From assembly GCF_964204645.1 (NCBI RefSeq), contig NC_134029.1, forward strand, positions 18,556,450 through 18,620,449: DNA of 64,000 nucleotides. Reading direction: 5' to 3'. A program made the translations under genes and the position numbers. Below the pieces are notes generated by a model. It was not told where the DNA came from and made no database searches. It saw nothing but the letters and a program-made list of their open reading frames with translations. Source of the stretch: Tubulanus polymorphus. Lineage: Eukaryota; Nemertea; Palaeonemertea; Tubulaniformes; Tubulanidae. Shown piece by piece: positions 3,658-62,500 of this stretch (the first letter of the stretch is position 1; the number at the start of each line of letters is the position of its first letter).

Positions 3658-7122
<3,465 letters not shown>

Positions 7123-37642: not shown

Positions 37643-37982
37643 TAAGCCGCGATCAAACGGAGACGATTTTGCCCGGGCCTAATCGTCATGGATTAGGCCC
37701 GAGTAAATTAGGGGATAAACGGGGATTTGGCCCGTGCCTAATAAGAGAGCGCGTTCGCGCGTAATCCACTTCACAATACTAAAAAAGTGATAAGTGAGTC
37801 ACTTCCGGAACCTGTAGTAATAATTTGACTTTGCTAAAATTTGGCTCGGGCCTGGTCCAACATTTTTGGTCGGATCAAATTTGGCCCGGACCAAACAGGC
37901 GCGGGCCCATTTGGAACCCGTGTGAACAGTTGTTCCGGGCCAAATTTGGCACGAGGCAAAAATGCTCGCGTAATCGCGGCTA
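37643..37982 (+). mobile_element. GGCCCGGGCC-rich MITE, copy 1
   Basis: Left terminus TAAGCCGCGATCAAACGGAG, right terminus CGTAATCGCGGCTA. Internal GC-rich palindromes (TTGCCCGGGCC, AATTTGGCCCGG, CTCGGGCCTGGTCC) stand out from the AT-rich surroundings. Aligns with the reverse complement of 40541-40846. Confidence 0.7.
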
Positions 37983-40068
37983 TAGTGTTAATATCTTTAG
38001 CGTCATCGGCAATGCTTCTTTAACCGAGTTAATGAGTGCCATTACGGTAACCACAAAATTGCCGAGGCTTTTCGCGTCGTGTTTTAAAACGACATTAATG
38101 TTGAATTTACGTCTCGTCGTATTGCACCGTAAAGTGATTACAGTCAAAGGTTGTCCTGGCTGATAATTGCCGCAAACCTCATCATCAGATCGCACGTCTG
38201 CCCCTGATCGCATTATTGATTATGATACGAACGCGCGCGTCTAACGTGGAAAAATAGCGTTTATTAGTGTGATTGCCGTCAGTCGCTGACAATGTATTCT
38301 AATCACCCGAGGGATGGTAATTATGGATTATTTTTTGCGTCAAGTGTCATTATTAACAAGAACGATTGCATATTGGCTTTATTGAGTCTCATTTGCCTTT
38401 GATAACTTGTCAAGATTGTGATTAACAAGTTTGCTGATACAAATCCGAAGCCACGCATCTTGCTGACCAGCGTGAGAGATGGCCAGAAATCTACAACCGC
38501 GGTTTCTACCGCGGCGTCCGGGATCGGATTAAGCAAGGTGGCAATTTTTGATCACGCCAAAGATTTATGGAATGTTGTTAAGTCATATTCTTTACTTGGC
38601 CTTGATAAATCAGCTCGTCTCATACTAATTGACTGAAGGAAATCTATCACAGAAATCTCTAATTATAAGAAATCTCTTACTTGGATTTGTTTGACTTTCG
38701 TGTGAAAATGTTTCATCCAGAACACTTGTCAGCGGGATGCGTACATTGGGAACGCAAAGAATGGTAGAGCATTGTGTACACAACTAGTTCCAGGACTGGG
38801 CGAAGAATGTATTAATGAAAAACGAATAAATTAAATTATTTTTTGTGAATGAATTAACGACTGAATCAGATCATTTAATGTGAATGAATACATTTTTATA
38901 ACGTTCTTACAATGATAATCTTCTATTCAAATGAACAACACTACACCATTTCTCTTATATAACGTACACATTTGTAATATGCAAATGAAGGCGCTTAAAG
39001 ATAAAACGCCAAAGAGAGATGAACGTCGAATTTTCTATCAAAAATCGATTTATTGCGCCCTAAAGCGAAGCCTCTTTGACACACCCGTGAAAGTTTGTTA
39101 CCAAGCCTAAAATTGCAGCATTTAAAAATAAGCAATAAGGACTAAATGAAATATCGATTTGTATGGTAATAAAAAACGTAGATCGTTATTATAATAAACA
39201 ATGAAGCATGTTGTTGACAAAGGTTTTTCAGGTTGGATAAGGGGGGGGGGTCTGAATTAGTATTCGCTGATCTTTAAAAAGGGTTTTTGATTCTTAAATA
39301 GCGCCTGAAAAATCAGAAGTCCCAGCGCATTTTTAAGTCACTATATTTTGAAATGACATATATCTAGAAAAATCAATATCATATCAAATTATGTATCTTC
39401 TACAGTCATATTTGGGTTTAGCCCTCCATAGAGTTCCGAGACGAGGACGACGAGAGGTCCCTTTAGCTTTTATTAGTAAAACCATGTCGTGCCACCCGAT
39501 GATAAATAAATGATTGGGTTAAGAAATCAGCGTTTTCGGTTGCGTGCGCGAAATCCTTGGTTTGCCGGCTGAAAAGATTTCCCCGCGGACGACGAAAGAT
39601 ACAAAGCGATTCGGTCGAAAGATTAACAGCCGAACTTTCGATTGGGCCGATATGCGCGTTAATCACCGAAAACAAATACATCTGAACGCTAGATAAATAT
39701 TGATATATTAATTTCTGCAACAACATGAATCGATTGAATGCAAACGATCACCTGACACGCTATCGATGTTGATCAGATGAACCGATACCCGCCAAGCAGA
39801 CGCTCAATCGAGACATGGTTCTTGTTTAATATCTGACCACTAGAATGACTAATGAGGCGTGCAATTTAATTGACTAGATGCAGGTAATGTTTCGATGAGG
39901 TTGATTTCTTGGTGCTTCCGATATAAGATATGTCGTTTTCCCTGCCGTATAGGATATTTTGAAATTTATCAACCATTTTTGGACGTGTCATAATATGGTG
40001 GCTGCCGATTTGAAAATTATTATTCCAAATTAAAGGGTTGAGAGGCCAAAGAAGAAACTAAAAACACA

Positions 40069-40155
40069 GCCGCGGTCAGGGAATTGAATCCACGAACCTG
40101 CGATTATTGAGATCAGTACGCAAACGACCGACAATTTACACCACTCAGCCGGACA
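40069..40155 (-). repeat. tRNA-derived SINE head (unit A)
   Basis: On the minus strand GGCTGAGTGGTGTAAATTG is an A-box and D-arm-like segment, and TTCGTGGATTCAATTCCCTG a B-box and T-arm-like segment. A longer gap between them suggests a class II (Leu/Ser) tRNA ancestor. Not a functional tRNA. Confidence 0.5.
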
Positions 40156-40540
40156 AGTTAATATACGTTATGATAATAATTGACATTGAAATATTTAGAT
40201 TTAAAACATACTTTTCGAAACGAAGATTTCTTAAATACTACGAACACCGAATGATGATGTGTATAGTGATTACAAAACCAATAAGCGCCTTTAGAATTAA
40301 AATTCCCTTATCATATCGAAACAAAGAAATTTCTAGCTAACACTTCTATTTTCATTATGATTTTGCTATTAGCATTTTTTTCAAATCATATACCACGTTT
40401 CTCGTATCAATCTTAAAGATTAGATTTAGATTAGTTTCGATGAGTTTGATTTTTTCTCGGTGCTTCCGATATAAAATATGTCGTTTTCCCTGCCGTATAG
40501 GATATTTTGAAATTTATCAACCATTTTTGGACGTGTCATA

Positions 40541-40846
40541 TAAGCCGCGATCACACGAGCACTTTTGGCCCGGGCCAAATTTAGCCCGGGCTAAACAGGC
40601 TCGGGCACTTCCGGACCAAAAACATCGGACCAGGCCCGAGCCAAATTTTAGCACCAGACAAATGATTGCGTTTGAATTGCAACTGGCACCGGAAATGATC
40701 CACTTGCTTTGTTTGAGCATTGTTTAGTATCGAGTGAATGGTTTGCGTGAAAACGCGCTCTCTAATTAGGCACGGGCCAAATTTGGCCCGAGCCTGATCC
40801 GTTCAAATTTGGCCCGGGCCAAATCGTCTCTGTGTGATCGCAGCTA
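40541..40846 (-). mobile_element. GGCCCGGGCC-rich MITE, copy 2, nested in duplication unit B
   Basis: Termini TAAGCCGCGATCACACGAG and GTGTGATCGCAGCTA. Body palindromes GGCCCGGGCCAAATTT and TTTGGCCCGGGCC. The flanks GTGTCATA and ATATGG are contiguous in unit A, which gives the pre-insertion site and is consistent with a TA target. Confidence 0.8.
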
Positions 40847-40924
40847 ATATGGTGGCTGCCGATTTGAAAATTATGATTCCAAATTAAAGGGTTGAGAGTC
40901 CAAAGAAGAAACTAAAAACACTGC

Positions 40925-41008
40925 ATCGGCCAGGGAATTGAATCCACGAACCTGCGATTATTGAGATCAGTACGCAAAGGACCGACAATTTAAACCACTC
41001 AGCCAGAC
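40925..41008 (-). repeat. tRNA-derived SINE head (unit B)
   Basis: Same arrangement as in unit A: TGGCTGAGTGGTTTAAATTG and TTCGTGGATTCAATTCCCTG on the minus strand, with a few substitutions. Confidence 0.5.
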
Positions 41009-44000
41009 AAGTAAATATACGTTATGATAATAATTGCCATTGAAATATCTAGATTTAAAACATTCAAAATGACGATTTCTTAAACAGTACGAACACCGAA
41101 TGATGATGTGTATAGTGATTACAAAACCAATAAGCGCCTTTAGAATTAAAATTCCCTTATCATTTCGAAACAAAGAAATTTCTAGCTAACATTTCTATTT
41201 TCATTATGATTTTGCTATTAGCATTTTTTTATCAAATCATGTACCACGTTTCTCGTTTCAATCTTAAAGTTTGATTTAGATTAGTTTAGTTTATTTGCTT
41301 ACAGTACAGAAAAAAAATTTACAATATATGTGTAGTAAATACATGAATATGTGTATGATGGACAATCCTGTCTATAAATGTCTATAAAATGTCCATAGAT
41401 TACACTACAAATTTAATTAACTTTACCCTTTTAACTTTACACTACTGACATATATTGATGGCGTGATGTTTCCTTAAAACAAACGTGGGCTTGCCTTTTT
41501 TTACAAAATAAACCAGATTTATCAGGGATTATTAGGTTGCTATTAGAATTGATATTGTTGGTTCGATTTGCGCTACTCAATGTGAAACACTATGTCGAGA
41601 GTTGGTTCGATTAAAAATCTTCAACTACACCATTTCAAATCCTTGTTTAATATCCTTAAATCCAATGAAATGTCATTTTTCAAGATGAATCGTTGTTACA
41701 TCAGTGTTTAATCCAGAAGGCCATATCCGTCGCGTGATCTAGCCAAAGTTCTTTACGATTCTGTTCGGAGTGGATTCTTCTCGGACACGACTCCGTAGTA
41801 ATTGATCATTTCAACATCGATTATTTTTATTGACCTTTCTCTGATCCGATTTGACAATCTGATGGAAAATTGATTAGTTATTTCATCACAAAATGTGGTC
41901 GTATTTGACGGCTTAAGAAGCGTAGAATTACATATCATCATTAAAGTTTCGTTTTTTCCAAATTACTCGTCCATGATTATTTCGTGTGTTTTTTTTCGGT
42001 TTGAAAACAGATATAATCAATTTGAATTCGTTAAGATAATTAGTTATTTTCGAGTAAATCTGAACCGTGTGACAATAAATGATGTTTTAGTACTAATTGA
42101 AATGTCGCGAAAGAAAATACAGGAAAAGCGGGTTTCGAATCCACTCGTGATTTTACCTGGGATTACTATTTAGTGACAGGAAAACGTGATAAATGATATC
42201 TTGATTACACGGGAATTCAATTAGATTTTAAACCCGTGTAAGCTTTGTTCATCCGTGTCTGGTCCCATCAATCCAAAGTTCAAATAGTTTGAATTCTCGA
42301 ATCAGTCAAGAGTTCTGGGGCATGATATCTTATCGTGCGTGCATTTTGGAAAAGATCAAAACGATAACTATTCTGAAGAAACAAAAATTAGATATATCAA
42401 GACTAATTATGTGTATAATGGCACATTTCCCATCTCCATGCTTTATTCAATTTTAAGGGCCAACAACCAGTATGCTGGGTGGGGTGGAATTTAATTCAGT
42501 ATTCAGAATGGAAGAGGCCTATTCCCGACCACCTTCACACTAGATTAGACTCGCAAAATTGCTTTGTACCTTAAAGGGTTAAATGAATCAGTAGTATGCG
42601 TTTTGCGGAGATACTTTGATGATTAAAATAGAACTTATAGACATAACGCTACTCGTTCATACTTATTAAATGGATAAATTTAATTAATTTTCAACAAGAA
42701 GAGCTATATTGTGCTATACGTTTGTACGATATTATTTTGCCGTAACAAAAATTGTATCACCGTAACAGTTACAATGACAACATCACTTTAATGTCATTTG
42801 TTGCGGCCAGTAATCGTTTCTATCGCTAATCTTCCCGCAAATTTACTGACCTGAGACAACTGACCACAACTCTTTCCGCGCTACGTAGAGAAAGAACGCA
42901 TTTTCATGTAGCGCGTCATTTTAACGACCAACTCAGCCGTCGAGAAAAACTGATGCAATTGTCTTTTGCGTTGATCCCTGGATTAGCGTGATTGTGTTGA
43001 TAAATCCTACAAGATACTCAAAGATTGATGACAATTTGTGATAATGAATACATGAATTCACAAAAAGGTTCCCTGTCACGGTGATTTATGAAGTACTCCC
43101 GATACAGTTCTCCTACGTACTCGCCGTCTGATAGATTTTGGTCATATTCTGAAGATTGTCCAGGCAGGGCAGAGCCATTTAGGGTCTTCCATTTGATTCT
43201 GATTAGAAAAATAGTCTGCAGCATTATTGGCTTTTATTCAATTTGCCAAAACAGAGATGGGATCCTACCAAATATTCGTGACTGCGACCAAGTTGGTAGA
43301 TCTCCCTGATCTTCCAGCAATTCACTTTTCACCTATTTTCGTCAACAGGCCAACGCAGACGATGCAGGAAACCATGGGAACACAGAAACACGGAATCAGA
43401 CATGTTTGATCTCGGAACGGTTTTTTCCAAAACCATCTCGATTCTCGTAAACACACATACGCCACCATAAAAACGCTCTGAAACATGTTTCTATCTCATT
43501 ATCCGTGTTTCCCTGCGTCTTCTGCGTTGGGCTTAAAGCATAAAACGTTTAGTTACTAAAAATCATTTCCGTGAAATCCCAGCTACACGAGAAAATATCA
43601 GGTGACTTAGATAGGCGAAAAGATCTGCGCTGGAAATTTACGAGAAATAATTTTTGTGAATCTATTATTGAACTGAGACCACAGCGGCAGCATAGACCTT
43701 TTAGAGCCCATGAGTAGACTAACCTTTTATCTACAGTTGACACACAGGTTGATTATTTCATCCGATTGAGCGACTGGTGGTGTCTCGAGTAGTGTTTGAA
43801 ACAATGCGCTTTCAATTTTGAATCGAGAAGTTGTGGCTCCCTATACGTATCTTCAATGTAATTCATCTTCTAAAACGCATTCGTTCTTTTTCTAAATTGT
43901 GTCGCGGTGGCGAAATAAAATTACGGCTTATTGTCCGCGAGCAATTTATTCTTTTGTGTTCGTGAAAAGAAAACTCATTCGTTTCGTAAAGTTTTCGCGT

Positions 44001-45726: not shown

Positions 45727-46722
45727 CTACGACGAGTTTGTCGCCGTGTTTGTTTCCTGATGTTTTGTTGGCGGCGATTCCCGTAAGGCGGATACGGTGG
45801 AACAGTTCGCGTACATGCTCCCGGCCCGTGAAATACATACTCCGTGTAGTCCCATCGGAAGACCGGCCTCGCCGCTTACAACCAACGACATCGGGGGCAT
45901 AGCAGATATCGGCGACGGTTTTATCGGCAATGGGGCAGTGATGCCGGGTAAAAATGTCCTCATATGTCCCAAACTGACTTCGTTTTTCAAGGCGGATATG
46001 GCGGAAATGTCACTACTCCACGATGGAGCCAGAGCCGGGTTGCCGACGTGCGATGATAGCGTATGGATATTGGACCCGGCAAACGTAGGAATCGCTGCCG
46101 GAATTATCGGGCTGAACGACGAACCCGACGACGACTTAAAATCCGGGGCGATAATGTTCTCAATCGTGAAGGCTTGCTTGTTAGCGTTAGAAGGTCTGGT
46201 CGATGGTACAGTACCCGCCACCGGGTATTGCGGTATTTTACTCGGAATATGCGCCGGATGAAACTGTCCGCTGTTCCCACTACCGAAATTCTGCATTCTT
46301 AGTTTCTGCTGTTGCAAGTAAAGCGCCGACTGGTCGAGGATTTCTTGCGCTTTTCCGAACTGTTCGGCGAAACATTTCGGCGATGAACGCAGTTTGAATC
46401 GCTTTCGTCGCCGCAAGAAACTCCCGTTTTCGAACATATCCCCGCAATACGGATGTAACGCCCAGTAGCTTCCCTTGCCCGGGCGGTCCGGTCGCCGAGG
46501 AATCTTGATAAAACAGTCGTTGAATGATAAATTATGACGCAACGAATTCTGCCATCTTTGCGTATTTTGACGATAGAACGGAAATCTGTCCATGATGAAT
46601 TTGTAAATGTCGTTCAACGGTAACATTTTTTCGGTTGATGATTGAATCGCCATGGCGGTCAAAGCGATATAGGAATACGGTGGTTTTTGGTCGCTGTACG
46701 TGTTTCTACCCGGCCGTGGCAT
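45727..46722 (-). CDS. FoxB: Forkhead box transcription factor FoxB, single exon
   Basis: Intronless forkhead transcription factor of 331 residues (human FOXB1 325). The true start is ATG 46722, giving [20 protein letters not shown]; the in-frame TTG at 46752 is not a start. The forkhead domain spans about residues 13-105, with [39 protein letters not shown] and [20 protein letters not shown], followed by the basic RRRKRFK. The MPRPGRN start fused directly to the forkhead and the RPDRPGKG loop are FoxB hallmarks. Residues 185-191 (FTIENII) match the eh1-like Groucho-binding motif conserved in FoxB. The C-terminal half is Ser/Pro/Ala-rich with low conservation. FoxB patterns the ventral neural tube and mesoderm in animals studied. 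Minus-strand AATAAA motifs at 45614 and 45597 give a short 3' end. About 8-11 kb on each side has no recognised genes. Confidence 0.96.
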
Positions 46723-49700
46723 CGTGCTCGATATTCTTACAGTGTCCAACAAGTGTCAAAAATACGCTAATAATATATTACGCAAATCGTGTTGAGCTTT
46801 TCTGAATTCGGATGCGGGCAAAAAATGTTCTGTGTTAACTCCGAAAATTTAGTAATCGGTTTTTCCTTCAAATTAGAAAAAAGTCCACTTAACTGAAGCA
46901 ACAGAAGCCTAATTTCCCTTATGCACTTGGTAGAAAATGATTTCACCTTTCGTTCTTGTGGCTTCGATTGGACCAGGCTCCACTATGTTAACGCCTGTGA
47001 CTGCTCTCCAACACTGACGCCAAATTCAGCAAATATTCCCAGTTTTAACAGCAGTTCTCATAATCACAGTTACACTTAATCAACTACACAAACCACACAA
47101 AACCGAACGCACTTGACAGCGCCGTCGTGAACTCCTTCCAATGACGTCAGTTGGTCTACACGGCTAGGGGAGGGGCTTCCTGAGGGAAGCGCGACCATTA
47201 ATGCCGATCCGGTAAACTATTAATGACATCTTTGACAAGAATTGTGAAGTGTTTTCAATGTCGTACTAAAGTGTTATTGAATTAGCTGACAAGAGTTAGC
47301 AAGTTTTCAAACCACATGCGTGCAAAAACGCATAAAAACCTACTCGAAATAATCATCTCGTAAGCAGATGACCAGAATCGCGAAGCAGCCAATCAGCCGT
47401 TTTCGGCAATTTATTTCAGCAACTCCGCTCGATTAAAAAGAATAATTATTCTGCGAACTATACGCATCGACGGCCTTAATCAAATTTCAAAACCCGAACA
47501 TTCATTAGATATCAAAATCATCGTCCTTGTGGTGTGCTATAATAACCTGTCTCTTACTCACCATTCGTTGCAGTTCTATTATCTAATATTAACCGCACAA
47601 GGTTATTTTGTGGAATAAACGTTTATATCATCAACTGTGGGTTCAACTTAAAAAAACTCAGAATATATTGGTATACCAGTCGACTCGATTCATCTCTTGT
47701 TGACCATACTTAAGTTGCCAAAGTAAATTATGTGAATTATGATATCGTATAACGTTACCTCTTGTATATACATTTTCCCGATTAAGATCTTGATTTCATT
47801 TGAAAAATTCATAATAGATTTTGCCCTCTGTCTGCGTATATTCACATTCACGCCTTATGAAAACAATTTCTTACAGATATTTAGTCGGCAGTTGGCAAAA
47901 TATTTTTGGGTCGGTTGCTCCGAACAAGCCACCATATGTCCCCAAAAACAGAGCTGTTACTTTAAGAACGTCGGGCCTCGCCGTTCGCAAAAAAACGTGC
48001 ACAAAGGGTTTACGGGGCGAATTTCCCGATTCTCAATTCGTCTGTGAAAAATTTATATTTCCGATAGTGAAGTAACCATGCGGCAAAGTCAACGTTTGTA
48101 AACCTAACACAAAAGAAATCAATTACAGATTTGAAATCATGGTTCCCGTACACGAAAGATTATGTGGCCGAGTTCTTTTTTTCGGGGAGTTTCAACGGCA
48201 CCTCGGAACCGAATATTATTTTCATTCTGTATACCCTCGAAAAGAATAACGCGATCTGATTGTTAGTGCGCGGCATTGTGCGCGCTACACAGGCTCACAT
48301 TTCGGTTCCTCCCTTTACTCGGCGGGGATTAATAAATTTCATTAAACATAACCGATCTAGCCATCAGAAGCCACTTGCGCGCGGCGACAGAGACTATTGT
48401 CGCCAATAGGCCGAGAATAATGGAATAACTAACATTGACATGTCGATATCATAGAGACAATCTTCAACGATGCCTTTAATCCCGAATTCGAGTTCGTCTG
48501 ATCTGCGAACCGTAATTATTCTTTTCCTATTCTATTCGCTATCTTTTCTTGAAAATCAAACGAAGCGAATGCGAATGGGTGAGATATTCACGAAATGAAC
48601 TTCATTCAATCCTATTTCGCTTTGCTTTGATGAATTATTGCTTTTTTTATCGCCGAAAAGCGATGTTCGAGTACTTTTCGAAAACCTGTGAATCTAAGTA
48701 AATCATCCGGTTTCTTAGTGTAGTGAATTATTCAAAGTTGTCAGAAATGAAGAAATACGTTTCTCAAATTGCTATTCATTGAAATATCGCTTCTTGCTTT
48801 AAGACGAATAGCTTTTTTCGACTGCAATGTTTTTGGCTTTTGAAAAGCTGAGCACATTAAGGCCCTAATGTTGTGAAATGCGAACAATAACCCATCAATC
48901 TGACGACGCTTCGATCGGTTTTCTATAATAAGCCAGTAGCTTGTAATTTCCAAAACAAGACATTCAGATCTTAGAATATAAACAACCGTACGAACGACTA
49001 CATCGAGATAGTGGTATTCATCTTTATTGCCAAGATCCGCACTTAGATATACAAAAGCGGTTAAAACGCGTATACGTCGTTTAGCAGGCGTAAATGAAAA
49101 GAGCCATACAAATACACTATATATGATGTTATTATTCATTATTCTAAAATGAGCTCATATAAATTCAACTATCCTTTTAAAAGCGTATTCGGTCGTCGTC
49201 AGACGCGAGAATAAAACTTTAGCCCAGGACAAATAAAACAACTTAATGTACATACGATGTGTATGCGGCTGTTTACATTAAAACTTCTAATATTTGTTTA
49301 GGTCATTAATCTGACTTATAAACGATGAAAGAAGACGCATTTATCACCGGACATAAACTCGCTGAAGACACTTGATTTAGGGCCTTTACGTCGCGACAGC
49401 GCTATTCATCTTAGCCCGGTTAAAGTTTCGGTTCGGCGCGTTCTAAAAAGGTGTTTTCCTCACGCAAAGACTTATTGCGAGCTGTTATTTCTTAATGGCT
49501 TCGGCAATAAATTCTCGACAATCAAAATCACACGTTAATGACAAATTTGAACGCTCGATAAAGTAAAACCACGATTTTCGTAACTTATCAAGCTTTATAA
49601 ACTTCGTTTTTCGATCTATTTTTTGCTATTATACATAAATAGTTTTATGTGTTGTTTATTTCTATTTCACAACCATTAACCAGTTTTAATAGCGGTGTGA

Positions 49701-54811: not shown

Positions 54812-57672
54812 TTATTTAACAAGATTTGCTGTATAAAACCAAGACCAGGATAAATGCACAATTTTCTGAAATGCCATACCTATAAACAATTTGTCGAACG
54901 CATGAATATGAATATTATGACTATCATTATGCACCAACCACGTATCCATATTAACGCTTGACAATTTGAATTCCAACTCGAACGTCACATTACAGACGTT
55001 TTCGATTTCAAACGTGGCTCCATTGATGAAACGTCTAGTATACAAAAATAAACAAGTCGTATTTCCGATTTTATTGTTGACTTCTATTTGCCCGCGTTCC
55101 GGTGGCGTTCTGCGAAATTGACCGTTTGTGACGGTACAGATACACAACCGTAAGTTAACATACGTCTCGGCGCATTGTCTGTACCGCTCGTAGCTGGTCA
55201 CGCGCTCGACCGACGCGACCGTTAAGCTGGATTCGTCGACGCCGTGTCTTACAGCGACGAAAAATGTCTCCCGGCGTCCGTCTGCACCAAGAATATCCAA
55301 GTCAAACTTGTAAACCATAGCGTTCTGAAAGAAATTCAAAAAGAAACTCGAAACACCTTTTTGAAATACTATACTTTCTAAATGTGTCTATATGATGTAT
55401 GGTGGCTGATTCGGGCCATACTAAAAAAATTTCTGTACGGCTAGAGAAACGATAAAAAACTTTAACATTGGCCCGTTTTTTGGTTTCTCGCGCGAGAAAA
55501 CAAAAATGTTTTGAATTCTCGCACGAGAAAACGGGCCAATGAGGACATTTTTATAGTTGCTCTAGCCGTACAGAAGTTTTTTTTAGTATGAACATGTTTC
55601 TGGTCGAGTTTTTGTCTGTGGACGATACAAACCTTGTTGATACTTTTTCTCATATTTCTAAACGATTTTGGCCGAATTCTCCGACAACTTCCGTACTCGG
55701 CACTATCGATGCTCATTTTGCCGCCATTGTCCAGAAAATACGACCGTATCTGATTGTTCAACACACCCGACGTAAATTCCGCCAGAATTTCGTGGTCCAC
55801 GTTATGACCGACTCGCAACTCGTATCCAGCGCAAATACATACGTTTGGCATAGATAACTCGATGTCGTCACAAGTACGAGTTTCCGGTACCGCGCCAAAA
55901 AGAGTCTGACTAGCCGATACGCTGCCTTGAGCGTGTAAGAGGTAACGGAGGGTATGGTGAATATCAGTCATTGATACAAGTTTATTTTGATTATCGAACA
56001 TGTTTTCGATCGACTGCTCGCCGAGAATGCGCTGAACGTTCGGCGGAATGATGAAAAACAACATCGGGTTGTACGTTTCGTATCGACCACGAGTGTAGTT
56101 CTCGGCGTACGTCCCGTAATTGTTACCGTGATCGGAGAGCAGGACGGTGACGGTGTACTCGAGCGTTGCGGCCTCGTGGACATACGCGGCCAGATCTTCG
56201 TCGATAGTTTGAACGCGAACGCCCGTTTCTTCGTGGCTAGTACTACACGTATAGAACGAGAAGTACGGCCGTCCAGACTTCGTCGCGAATACGCGATAGT
56301 TTTTGAGGTATTCGAAAAAATACTGGTGGCTATACTTATTATTGAAACAGATCTCTTTCAGATTATGAAAAGGGTTGTCGGTGTTGCTCTGCTCGAGAAT
56401 CTGACAACTTGCTGCCGTGAGACCGATATCGCTAATTGAGGCCGATTCAAAAGCCTTCAGCAAACGTTTCCAACGACGAGAACCTTTAATCGATGCCTTT
56501 TCTCTGGGCAGGAAGTCCTTCACTGGGCCCCAGCCCGACTTCCAGCACAAATCATCTAACCACAAAGTCAGATACCCACGTTCGGCGCATTTGTCCAACA
56601 GTTTTTCAGTTCTTATCGGTTCGTAATAGTCCTCGTCACGTTTGAATTTCATCCCCGAGTCGAGCGTCACGTGACCAGTGAACAACGCCTGCAGCGATTC
56701 GTACGTCCTCGCTTTGACCGATTGCATCATTTCGAAGTCGAAAATAATCGGCGCATTTCGATAAACCGAACGTTTATTGATAAAACGCATGGCGCTGGCG
56801 GTTTTTTCCAGTGACCTGTAAAAATGATCCCTGGAAAGTGAGTCGACCAAAACGATTTCGACGTTTATTTTCGTTTCTGTTGATTTTCTGTAAAACTGCA
56901 GGGGATCTAACGATTTTCGGGGCAATAGAAAGAGTTGAGCGTGTTTCGTTTTCTCGCACTGAATGAAACAAAACCCGAAGCTGTCCGTACTTGAATTTAC
57001 TATTCCAGTTAGTTCACTTTGAAGTTCAATCGCAGTTTTAGCTTTTCTCCAAATAAGATCCCCGCTATCAACACTAACAATTCCATATTCATATCCAGTA
57101 CAGCCAGGGTTTGAACCACAGAATATTGTCTTGCCCCCATCATCGGAAATTGACTAGAAAATATGAAAATGCGTCAATCTTAAAATCGATTCGAATTTAA
57201 TCCACAACGAATTAGATGATGACGTATTGCTTTTTCAGGAATGTCTACTTACGTTTAATGTGCAGTATTCAACTGGCTTTCGGGTGGCGCATTTTGATGA
57301 TTTTCCTTTTGCGAACAACTTCTGAGTGACGCCACAAATATGGCGTGATGGCGCTACCCGTTGACATGCTCGATTCTTGCCCGTATTAACAGACGAACCA
57401 ATGGTCGGAAAAATATCACAAGGGGAATCTTTTTGTGGGCTCGTGTGTTTTAGTTGACTGAAACTCCGGAATAAGTGACCACGTCCCACCGCTGGTCGAC
57501 GCACTGGTCTGGCCGCTGTAGTGACGATAGGCTTGACCACTGGCTGGACTACAGTCCGGACCACTGGTTTCCCATTATCATACCGTCGTAAAGTTACGTT
57601 CAACGCCAAATACACTACCAGACCAAGAATAATTACAGCTTTAAAACACGTAGTTACTAGCGGCAAATTCAT
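54812..57672 (-). CDS. DUF229 / alkaline-phosphatase-superfamily type II membrane protein
   Basis: Three coding exons: 57672-57253, 57153-55633 and 55324-54812, all joined in phase 0, giving 817 residues. Exon 1 encodes a short cytoplasmic tail and a signal anchor (AVIILGLVVYLAL), then a Pro/Val-rich stalk. The enzyme domain is in exon 2. VEIVLVDSLSRDHFYRSLEK holds the metal and nucleophile segment (DSLSR). CSTSHEETGVRVQTIDEDL and LLSDHGNNYGTYAENY (DHG metal-binding motif) follow, with NPMLFFIIPP after that. This order is typical of DUF229 proteins, which resemble sulfatases and phosphotransferases and face the Golgi lumen or outside. Exon 3 ends with the conserved Cys pattern YRQCAETYVNLRLCIC. 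The family's substrate is unknown. The ATG is 57672; upstream in-frame TTG is not a start. The intron before exon 3 contains a 174-bp palindrome. The SLC7 gene is divergent 1.9 kb away. Confidence 0.85.
55417..55590. repeat. 174-bp near-palindrome in the DUF229 gene intron
   Basis: CATACTAAAAAAA and TTCTGTACGGCTAGAG at the left are mirrored by CTCTAGCCGTACAGAA and TTTTTTTTAGTATG at the right. Inner CATTGGCCCGTTTT pairs with AAAACGGGCCAATG, and TTCTCGCGCGAGAA lies at the core. It fills most of the 308-bp intron, ending 43 bp from exon 2. Confidence 0.75.
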
Positions 57673-59577
57673 TCTATTGTAAACTATCAAACTATCAAAC
57701 TATCTTCATCTTGTTAGAGCTTGTAGTCTGTAAAGAGGAATCATGAATCGGATTTCAAAAGTAATATTCAAATTACACGATGCCATGTATTTTACATCAC
57801 ATGGAAATATTGAGAATAATATAATTATAATGATAAAATTAAAACTTACCAAAAATTAGACTTAATGAATACATGTACTTATAATTCTTAAAATGGTCGT
57901 ATTGGTTTTGAACGTGCACGCTTACAAAATCACGATAACGACATTCTCATTTCAGGGTTGATAATGAATGTCTTATCGACCACAAAGTCAACAGAGTAAA
58001 GGGTTGTGTATAAAAAGTAAGATTTCAGGAAAAGACAACTCGTTTGTAAAGAACTGGTCTCCTTTTATAAAGAATAATACTTTGAAGTGAAATTCAAATA
58101 GTTGGGGTGCTGTGAACAAGGTCGTAACATTCTCTCTTCATTGATATTCAAATAATGGTAGAAAAAGAATTCTAAAAGCAATTCTTAGGTTACATATGAT
58201 ACCGCCAGTCCCGGATTTGGTTTCACTCTCGTCGAATGCCGTAGCAACGGTTTCGAGAGGTTTCCCCTGACATAAGCTGAAATAAAGTGAAGAGCAAACT
58301 ATATTCAGCAGAGCTATGTACAACATCGCCGACGATGGTAAACCGCCACATCAGATGTTGCTAGCACAAAGAATCTCACCAAACGTTCGAGGAAAATATC
58401 TTCTCTAAAATCTGTTAAATATTCTCCTCTACCTACTACTATACTACAACAACTGCGCATTATATACACAGAGCTAAAACGATTTGCGCACTTACCACAA
58501 CAGTTCAAGACATAGAACAAAATCGGCAGTTCACATGCATGATAAGACGTACGTATGTGTGTAAATATGACCAAAATGAATGCCTTAATTTGTAGATATA
58601 ACTCTCGCAAAATGTGACTACGTTATATTACTCGGTTTTATATACCGGTCTATTAATTAAAATGTGTAAAGAGACGCACGCTCAGCGCACATAAATAATG
58701 AATAATACTCATGAATGGAATTCTAACTTAAAGATCTAATGTGCGTTTGTTGCATGATATATGTTCATGTATGTGTATGTTATATATTTTCGTAGAATTT
58801 CAATCTAGAATCGACTTTTTCGTGAACTTGAAATCATGATTATACGATATTATTGACTGCGTTTACGAGTAATGTGGTGACCTCTGCAACGATGTGCAAC
58901 CACATAAACAAACGATAAATCTTGAAGTAATCCCTTCGTGGGGTTTAGTTGTTATACATGCAGTTGACCATCGAATTCGCAAAGCATAACCCGCACCGTC
59001 AACAAAACTGGTCAAGATCTTAACATATGCCAATCGACAGTCAACACGCGGATACAAGCAGGGAAACTAAATAAGGGGAGCAAGAAGGTCATTTGAATTG
59101 TTCTCGGTAAAAACCTGGATCTACGGTAAGATCGTTGGAGATTTACCTCAAAAGATCGGCTGATTTCTGTTTCTAATCGTTTATAAATCGGAAGTAGCGC
59201 ACGTCAGGTCCACGTTTTTCAATTGTAGAACGTGTTATGAAATTCAACACACAAAAAGAGGGCAATATAGTTATCGGTCGTAGTACTGGGTCTGTCGTTT
59301 GTGTGACATTCAATTGTAGTCACGCTCGTATATGTTAAGTCCGCCTCGACGAATAGAGAAGAACCAGGTTATGTGTATTTAATATTCGGCAAAATCGTAT
59401 CGTCAATTCATTGCGTTGCCAGGAATGTGCGTTTATATCTAAATTTTTAAGCTTCTGCGCTATCAGATTAAGATATAGTTCAGTTATATGATTTATTTTG
59501 CATAGGGCGCCATTTAGAAACAGTCACTCGCGATAGAATACGCCGAGTATATTACGAAGTCGAAGGATACTAAAATT
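57673..59577. other. Divergent intergenic region between the DUF229 gene and the SLC7 gene
   Basis: 1.9 kb of AT-rich DNA that must hold both promoters. No coding sequence or clear repeat was recognised. Short open frames on the minus strand (for example 58314-58610) lack any similarity or splice support. Confidence 0.45.
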
Positions 59578-62500
59578 ATGGCTACGGACTCGAAAGAACC
59601 GGAAGATTCTGTGAAATTACAACGAACCCTAGGATTACGAAGTGGAATTTCAATCATTGCCGGCATCATTATCGGTAGTGGGATATTCATCAGCCCGAAA
59701 GGAATTTTTCACGAAGTAGGGTCTCTGGGATTGGCCTTGATTATATGGGCAGTATGTGGCTTGTTTGCTTTGTTCGGTGCTCTGTGCTACGCTGAGTTGG
59801 GCGTCTGCATTCCAATATCCGGGGGTCCGTACATCTATATTCAAAGAGCGTTCGGACAATTACCGGCATTTCTAGTGTTATGGATAAACATCATCATTCG
59901 CGTACCAGCCGGATGCACTGTCATCGCTATGGGGTTCGGCTACTATATCGTCGAGCCGTTTTTCCCGGACTGCAAACAGCCGGATGAAGCGGTTAAACTA
60001 TTTGCAGCAATAGTCATGTGTAAGCATTTCCACAGTTTCGAAGATTCAAAGTTTATTTTGCTCCGTATCTTACAAAAGATTTGAGCACAGATATTTCTGT
60101 CCTACAATACATATTACATATTTATATCTGTTTTGTGTATAGGGTGACTTGTAAGTCCACCTTTGGGCTTGGTGCAGGTTAAGGTAATTGACCATATCAT
60201 TTGCATTTATATTTCACATGTCACTTTAATTAATAAATAGACGGATATGAATAGATATTACAAGGTGAACAGACAAAATCAATTCCTTTCGAAAACTTTT
60301 CGAAGAACACGACACCAGCATATTTTCTGTCCAAGTAACAGTAGCATACAACATGTAGATTTAATTATAACCCGACGTATTCAGTTGTATTTGAATATCA
60401 AGTAAAAGCAAAAATACATCCTCTTTATGTATGTTTGGTAGGGGAATAATGAATATACCATGGCTTTTATACTAGTTCTTTTTGATAGAGCTAACTTTTT
60501 TTTTCTATTTCGCAGGTTTTCTTACCGTGCTGAATTGCGTCAGCGTAAAATGGTCGTCGTGGGTATGCGACGCATTTATGTTGGCGAAATTCCTAGCTTT
60601 GATACTTATCATCGTCACTGGCATCGTACAGTTATTCAGAGGTAAAAATTACGCCGGCTTCGCACACAGCTGTGCACTATCTAGTAGCGTTTATTGCGTA
60701 ACTTATAAACAATTCACGTTCGCGAAAATACAACGAGCTGTTTCATTTATCAATATTTGGTACACTGTATTCATAAGTTTACTAAATCCTTAGGACCGCG
60801 CCGTACCTAGCATTTGAGATTTGTTTTTTGCTCGCCCACACAGGCACTTTTCCAAAATTTCCGCCCCCCCTCCGAGCCCCCTGCTGGTAGCTTCGGCCTT
60901 CAACACTGATATATATCTGCATAAAGAGCTGAATACCAAGAAATGTTTGCGATCAACTTATTTTCAAAATTCTTTTTAGGCCACGCTGAAAATCTAACGA
61001 ATGGTTTTGAAGGGAGCACGACGAATTTAGGGAAGATTGCCATTGCTATTTACATCGGCATGTTCTCATTCTCGGGCTGGTAAGAATGATTTCTAAAAAA
61101 AACTGCATCTAATCGACTTTGAGTTCTAAATCGCCATCAGACCATATGCTATTTTGTAGGGATGCGTTCAATTTCGTAACTGAAGAAATAAAAAATCCAA
61201 GAAGGTATTCCTTGTTTCTATCGTTTGTCGAATGATTAAGAAGCATTTTTGAATTATCTTCCACTTTTTCAAATCTACGTATATATATGAAAACAATTAA
61301 GGGTGAATGAACTTTTCACACGTGTTTGATGTTTTGTAAGGTTTCTGTAAAATTTTCAGAAATCTACCATTAGCCATTTGGATATCGGTACCGGCTGTGA
61401 CTGTGATATACGTTCTAGCAAACGTTTCCTATTTTGCAATTCTTTCACCTTATGAGATGTTACAATCCAACGCGGTCGCTGTAGTGAGTATAATGCACAA
61501 CACCTTATGTAAAAATAATCTAAATCTACACGTACCACACCCCTAGACATTTCACCATCTGTTACGTGTATAAGCTATCATAAATATCTAATTACGTTAC
61601 GTTATTTGATTGGATATTTGGTGGTTTAAATCGATCAAATAAACAACAATAGATTTTCCTGATATTTCGTTACACTACTTTTTCTTACGAATGATACGTA
61701 ATCATATTACGCATAAAAATGTTCGTAACGTTAATACGTGTACATACGCGTTATGCAAACACTTATACTCTAAAACTGCACCTACTGAAAAAGTTATGTT
61801 GTTTTTTTTTTAAATGATGAATCATAACCACGCCTTATCGTTTTATTCGTATCAATCATGTAGTCAGTCAACTTCAAAGATTATCATCTATTTCATGATT
61901 CTGCACTACAACCGATAGACTCGTGATTCACCAAAGACAGAACATTGGAATCAAACTACGGTACTCTACAACTAAATGGACTTTGTTTTGTAATTTCTTT
62001 TTATTATCTCATTGCAGACATTTGGTAATAAAGTGTTTGGTGTCATGGCTTGGTGCGTCCCAGTTTTTGTGGCCGGGTCGTGTTTCGGAAGTCTAAACGG
62101 CTGTATACTTACAGGTTCAAGGTAACCAAGACGAGACGTTCAGGCTAAATTCGATAAAGACCGGTCAAAGTTTGATTCCGTGTGAATAGACGTTGGAAAA
62201 GTTTTGTCATTGAAATTTGAGGCATTGTTTTATTGGTCTAAAGTGTCAAAATGTTATCCATAGACAAGCTAGAAATCTAGAAAAACCGTCAAAACAATAA
62301 CAACAAATTATTGAGTTTAATTAGGCCACACAAAAAACTGCTTGTTTCTCATCAGTTTCATTTTCCGAGTACGCGTCAAAAAGGTCCCTCAGTAAAAATG
62401 AAAATAGAAATGAGCATTCCGCATGCAAAAATCTGTTTTCGTTTATTTTCTTAAAGTGAAACACTTCTGTACGCATCCCAATAAAGCACCTAATCGCACT

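Follow-up and report, generated by a model that had tools for sequence, protein, structure and literature searches.

A tandem duplication in Tubulanus polymorphus with a MITE in one unit and the empty site in the other

The window, a stretch of 64,000 nucleotides of Tubulanus polymorphus DNA, contains two adjacent, direct repeat units, one of which is interrupted by a MITE. We consider it likely that tandem duplication of a single-copy stretch of about 545 bp came first and that the MITE was then inserted by cut-and-paste into the second unit (unit B), so that the first (unit A) represents the empty site. The locus shows one MITE insertion before and after within a single genome; together with four further empty sites it fixes the boundaries of the family and its 3-bp target duplication, a result that corrects the TA (mariner-type) assignment that one site alone would suggest. 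The finding is clean but ordinary, a paralogous empty site of a common MITE, and of limited wider interest, since comparison with such sites is a routine tool.

Results

Unit A (39889-40433, plus strand, 545 bp) is directly adjoined by its repeat, unit B (40434-41283, plus strand), in the same orientation. The units were compared by BLASTN and by global alignment, which bore out the direct duplication with a MITE in one copy that a sequence-only reading of the stretch had proposed. BLASTN returned two blocks (107 columns, 94.4% identity, E 7e-45; and 445 columns, 93.3% identity, E 0), a similarity far above chance; in unit A the two blocks share 2 bases (TA), and in unit B a 306-base insertion lies between them. 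In this 2-bp parse the insert occupies 40541-40846, beginning TAAGCCGCGATCACAC and finishing GTGTGATCGCAGCTA. With the insert left aside, the alignment contains about 25 substitutions in about 535 aligned bases (counted before a misaligned tail), the substitution identity being ~95%, and unit B differs from unit A by four further indels of +3, -5, +2 and -1 (net -1). Direct comparison of three junctions (the start of A, the start of B and the sequence after B) shows GTTT to be common to all, a 4-bp microhomology. The sequence-only reading had placed the duplication correctly but ended unit B at 41284; the end is 41283, because the GTTT that follows (41284-41287, plus strand) is the microhomology, which the unit start also carries. 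The unit lengths had also been said to differ by exactly the insertion, and while the figure of 306 holds, the equality is accidental, because the four further indels add up to -1 and are cancelled by the overshoot of 1 base in the stated end of B. Unit A used as a query against the whole 268-Mb assembly matched A and B only, which identifies the pair as a local duplication and not a dispersed repeat.

The history first proposed for the locus opened with a SINE insertion in the unit, presumably referring to 40064-40160 (minus strand), a stretch that genome searches place in units A and B only. Searched against the genome, it had no DNA match beyond A and B, and two 24-mers taken from it occurred in A and B alone even when as many as 3 mismatches were tolerated. 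No tRNA was found in it, either in Rfam up to E 10 or by ARAGORN. A tRNA-derived SINE was accordingly rejected, there being neither a dispersed multicopy family nor a tRNA-like head; with no SINE family visible, the SINE-insertion step of that history is unsupported. A very decayed SINE relic at 40064-40160 is still conceivable.

The inserted element belongs to an abundant family. With the insert as query, 95 matching places were obtained in the genome, 40 of 2103 first-look candidates being scored. The 14-mer AGCCGCGATCACAC occurs exactly 850 times (428 + 422) in the 268-Mb genome, and its backwards control had 0 exact occurrences there. We read 65 distinct copies with both ends, which range from 88 to 417 bp (mostly 210-360 bp, commonest length 327 bp) and most of which carry AGCCGCGATCACAC and its complement at their two ends as terminal inverted repeats. 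Inverted repeats, short length, high copy number, lack of coding capacity and a target duplication of fixed length make the focal element a MITE. An older relative of 337 bp, ~16% diverged from the consensus and flanked by a perfect ATA/ATA 3-bp duplication, lies in the window at 37645-37981 on the minus strand, ~2.6 kb upstream of the focal MITE and opposite to it in strand.

Target duplications were counted with the element ends taken as AGCC...GGCT. An exact 3-bp duplication flanks 36 of the 65 copies, whereas 10,000 shuffles averaged 10.2 such copies and never exceeded 21; 2-bp matches are present at the flanks of 7 copies. ATA (16 copies) and TAT (8 copies) are the commonest exact duplications and account for 24 of the 36; TAA and TTA account for 3. 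In 3/65 copies the core is immediately flanked by TA at both ends. The empty-site profile is symmetric, three central A/T positions being preceded by C/T and followed by G/A, giving a preferred, roughly palindromic target Y-WWW-R that is mostly ATA or TAT.

Four more empty/filled pairs emerged when the two flanks of every copy were joined and the product was compared with all available loci. One copy (L002, 1502-1828) is inserted within another copy of its own family with an exact TTT duplication, the filled site reading CGCAATCATTT, element, TTTGTCTGG and the empty site CGCAATCATTTGTCTGG; this pair is cleaner than the focal one. Another (L022, 1388-1736) lies in a repeat that is found empty both at 530-745 of the same locus and in L063, with an exact AAT duplication. 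A third (L070), for which there are three empty relatives, shows 3 extra bases, which are mismatched (ATT/ATG), and the pair at L043 has 2 extra bases. Because TTT and AAT are unreadable as TA, the target duplication of the family is 3 bp, and it is A/T-rich.

At the focal locus the empty site GTGTCATAATATGG runs uninterrupted at 39985-39998 (plus strand) in unit A, with no extra bases, so that direct reading upholds the claim of an empty site without a footprint. The corresponding filled site in unit B is GTGTCATATAAGCC...GCAGCTAATATGG. From the 3-bp duplication established by the 65 copies and the four other pairs, the bounds of the element are 40543-40845 (plus strand; 303 bp; ends AGCCGCGATCACAC...GTGTGATCGCAGCT). 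It is flanked on the left by ATA (40540-40542, plus strand), the presumed left target copy, and on the right by AAT (40846-40848, plus strand). The filled site has gained 303 + 3 bases net, as expected of a 3-bp duplication; a MITE is indeed present where one of 306 bp had been described, but the element is 303 bp and the remainder is the 3 bases. The two focal flanks are no longer equal. Within the empty site, ATA at 39990-39992 (4.9 bits) is the best fit to the family target profile, and AAT at 39992-39994 (2.8 bits) equals the right-hand copy; were AAT the target, the left copy would bear two changes, and were it ATA, two small TA indels would be required. Such a decayed duplication is unremarkable, because 29 of the 65 family copies have imperfect 3-mers. 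Taken alone, the focal locus can be parsed as a TA duplication around an element TAAGCC...GCAGC that has not mutated since; the 3-bp reading requires two changes, and this is presumably why a TA target was chosen originally. For the family, that target is contradicted by the 3-bp duplication common to its copies and by the TTT and AAT empty sites, which cannot be TA.

The ages of the two events were compared by divergence. Over the right-hand 230 positions of the family consensus, the focal MITE differs at 7 of 229 sites (3.1%), and outside CpG at 4 of 194 (2.1%). The divergence of the units per lineage is ~2.3%, and 1.7% outside CpG. Equal age gave P values of 0.33 and 0.81 in the two directions at all sites, and the ages of the MITE and of the duplication are indistinguishable. 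Since the divergence of the MITE is not below that of the units per lineage, the clock gives no confirmation of a younger MITE; divergence outside the insert, proposed as a measure of relative age, could be computed but has no power to order the events.

Elsewhere in the window, a long open frame with a forkhead domain (45727-46752, minus strand; Pfam Forkhead, E 2e-36) is, on our reading of its sequence, presumably FoxB-like. A DUF229 protein (55465-57153, minus strand, E 2e-31) and an amino acid permease exon (59518-60081, plus strand, E 9e-19) were also observed, as was an open stretch (5752-6117, plus strand) that matches the C-terminal domain of ribosomal protein S3 (E 1e-18) and is either a gene or a processed copy.

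Discussion

A single-copy stretch of ~545 bp was probably duplicated by microhomology-mediated repair or replication slippage at GTTT, a mechanism that we infer from the 4-bp identity at the junctions. A non-autonomous MITE of an abundant family would then have been inserted by cut-and-paste into unit B. The family's transposase is envisaged as making cuts staggered by 3 bp in A/T-rich, roughly palindromic sites, and such cuts would leave every insertion flanked by a 3-bp duplication, as shown for the family. At the focal site these copies would have changed after insertion to ATA and AAT.

Duplication followed by insertion, the order claimed originally, is the simplest reading, but it is not proven, the ages being indistinguishable. 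Indistinguishable ages also suit a history in which the unit carried the MITE when it was duplicated and unit A afterwards lost it by precise excision, which brought back the original sequence and left no footprint. Joining the flanks of unit B without the left 3 bp gives the unit A site exactly, and Tourist-like MITEs are described as generally excising precisely, with their 3-bp duplications guiding repair via microhomology (PMC4561436). On that description, the footprint check on unit A, which found no extra bases, would have given the same result after precise excision, and loss of the MITE from unit A is compatible with the site. Precise excision is documented for PIF/Harbinger, a group in which the focal MITE is not placed, and this course of events needs one event more than insertion after duplication; we regard it as unlikely.

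Less probable still is an insertion that was polymorphic at the time of the duplication, which would have come about when a chromosome with the MITE exchanged with one lacking it, the two events overlapping in time or the insertion being older. The resulting anatomy would be the same, and the ages are indistinguishable, but a junction with 4 bp of microhomology is more characteristic of an event within one molecule, and allelic divergence would have to underlie the later divergence of the units. An empty unit beside a filled one also has the look of a heterozygous MITE insertion, as if the assembly had set two haplotypes of one locus in tandem. We think such an artefact very improbable: the block is only 545 bp long, with unique flanks on both sides and a defined microhomology junction, and its ~5% substitutions and four indels are unlike retained haplotigs. 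Tandem duplication followed by insertion into unit B is the most economical reading of the locus.

Among known systems, the PHIS superfamily comprises PIF/Harbinger, Pangu, NuwaI, NuwaII and ISL2EU, with target duplications of TWA in PIF/Harbinger, ANT in Pangu, CWG in NuwaI and TNA with C and G outside in NuwaII (PMC4482050). The focal family resembles PHIS MITEs in being short, non-coding and of high copy number, with inverted repeats, mostly 3-bp duplications and A/T-rich symmetric targets, but unlike these TWA, ANT, CWG and TNA groups it duplicates mainly ATA and TAT. The TWA target of PIF/Harbinger was rejected, TAA and TTA making up merely 3/36 exact duplications against the 24 of ATA and TAT. 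The genome holds at least 150 DDE_Tnp_4 (PIF/Harbinger-type) matches. A search for an autonomous partner was negative: the focal inverted repeat was found at 0 of the 12 of these loci that were inspected, and two long intervals between family inverted repeats (L098 and L099) contained no recognisable transposase with the family's ends. Twelve chromosomal places share an identical-score DDE_Tnp_4 match (137.6 bits) in a 400-aa open frame, which suggests a recent burst, and the one copy of this set that was read (L086) is without the inverted repeat of the focal MITE.

The family is also like Tc1/mariner (Stowaway-type) MITEs, which are small inverted-repeat elements, and the focal site alone is readable as TA. 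In contrast to that group, it duplicates 3 bp, and its targets comprise TTT, AAT and ATG sites, at which TA fails; with TA on both sides in only 3/65 copies and the L002 and L022 empty sites excluding TA for the family, Tc1/mariner was rejected. A 3-bp duplication is shared with Zator, which is related to ISAzo13 (PMC10045372); the ISAzo13 transposase profile had no match in the genome, but the control set was equally silent, so that this blank does not speak for absence. It is possible, though doubtful, that the family represents an undescribed group of DNA transposons with a 3-bp stagger at Y-WWW-R, mainly ATA/TAT, apart from the TWA, ANT, CWG and TNA groups. In its logic the analysis resembles the RESite analysis of ATon elements in Aedes aegypti (PMC3422177), where paralogous sites with and without an element likewise fix its boundaries and target duplication; unlike that case, the empty and filled paralogues at the focal locus are tandem neighbours.
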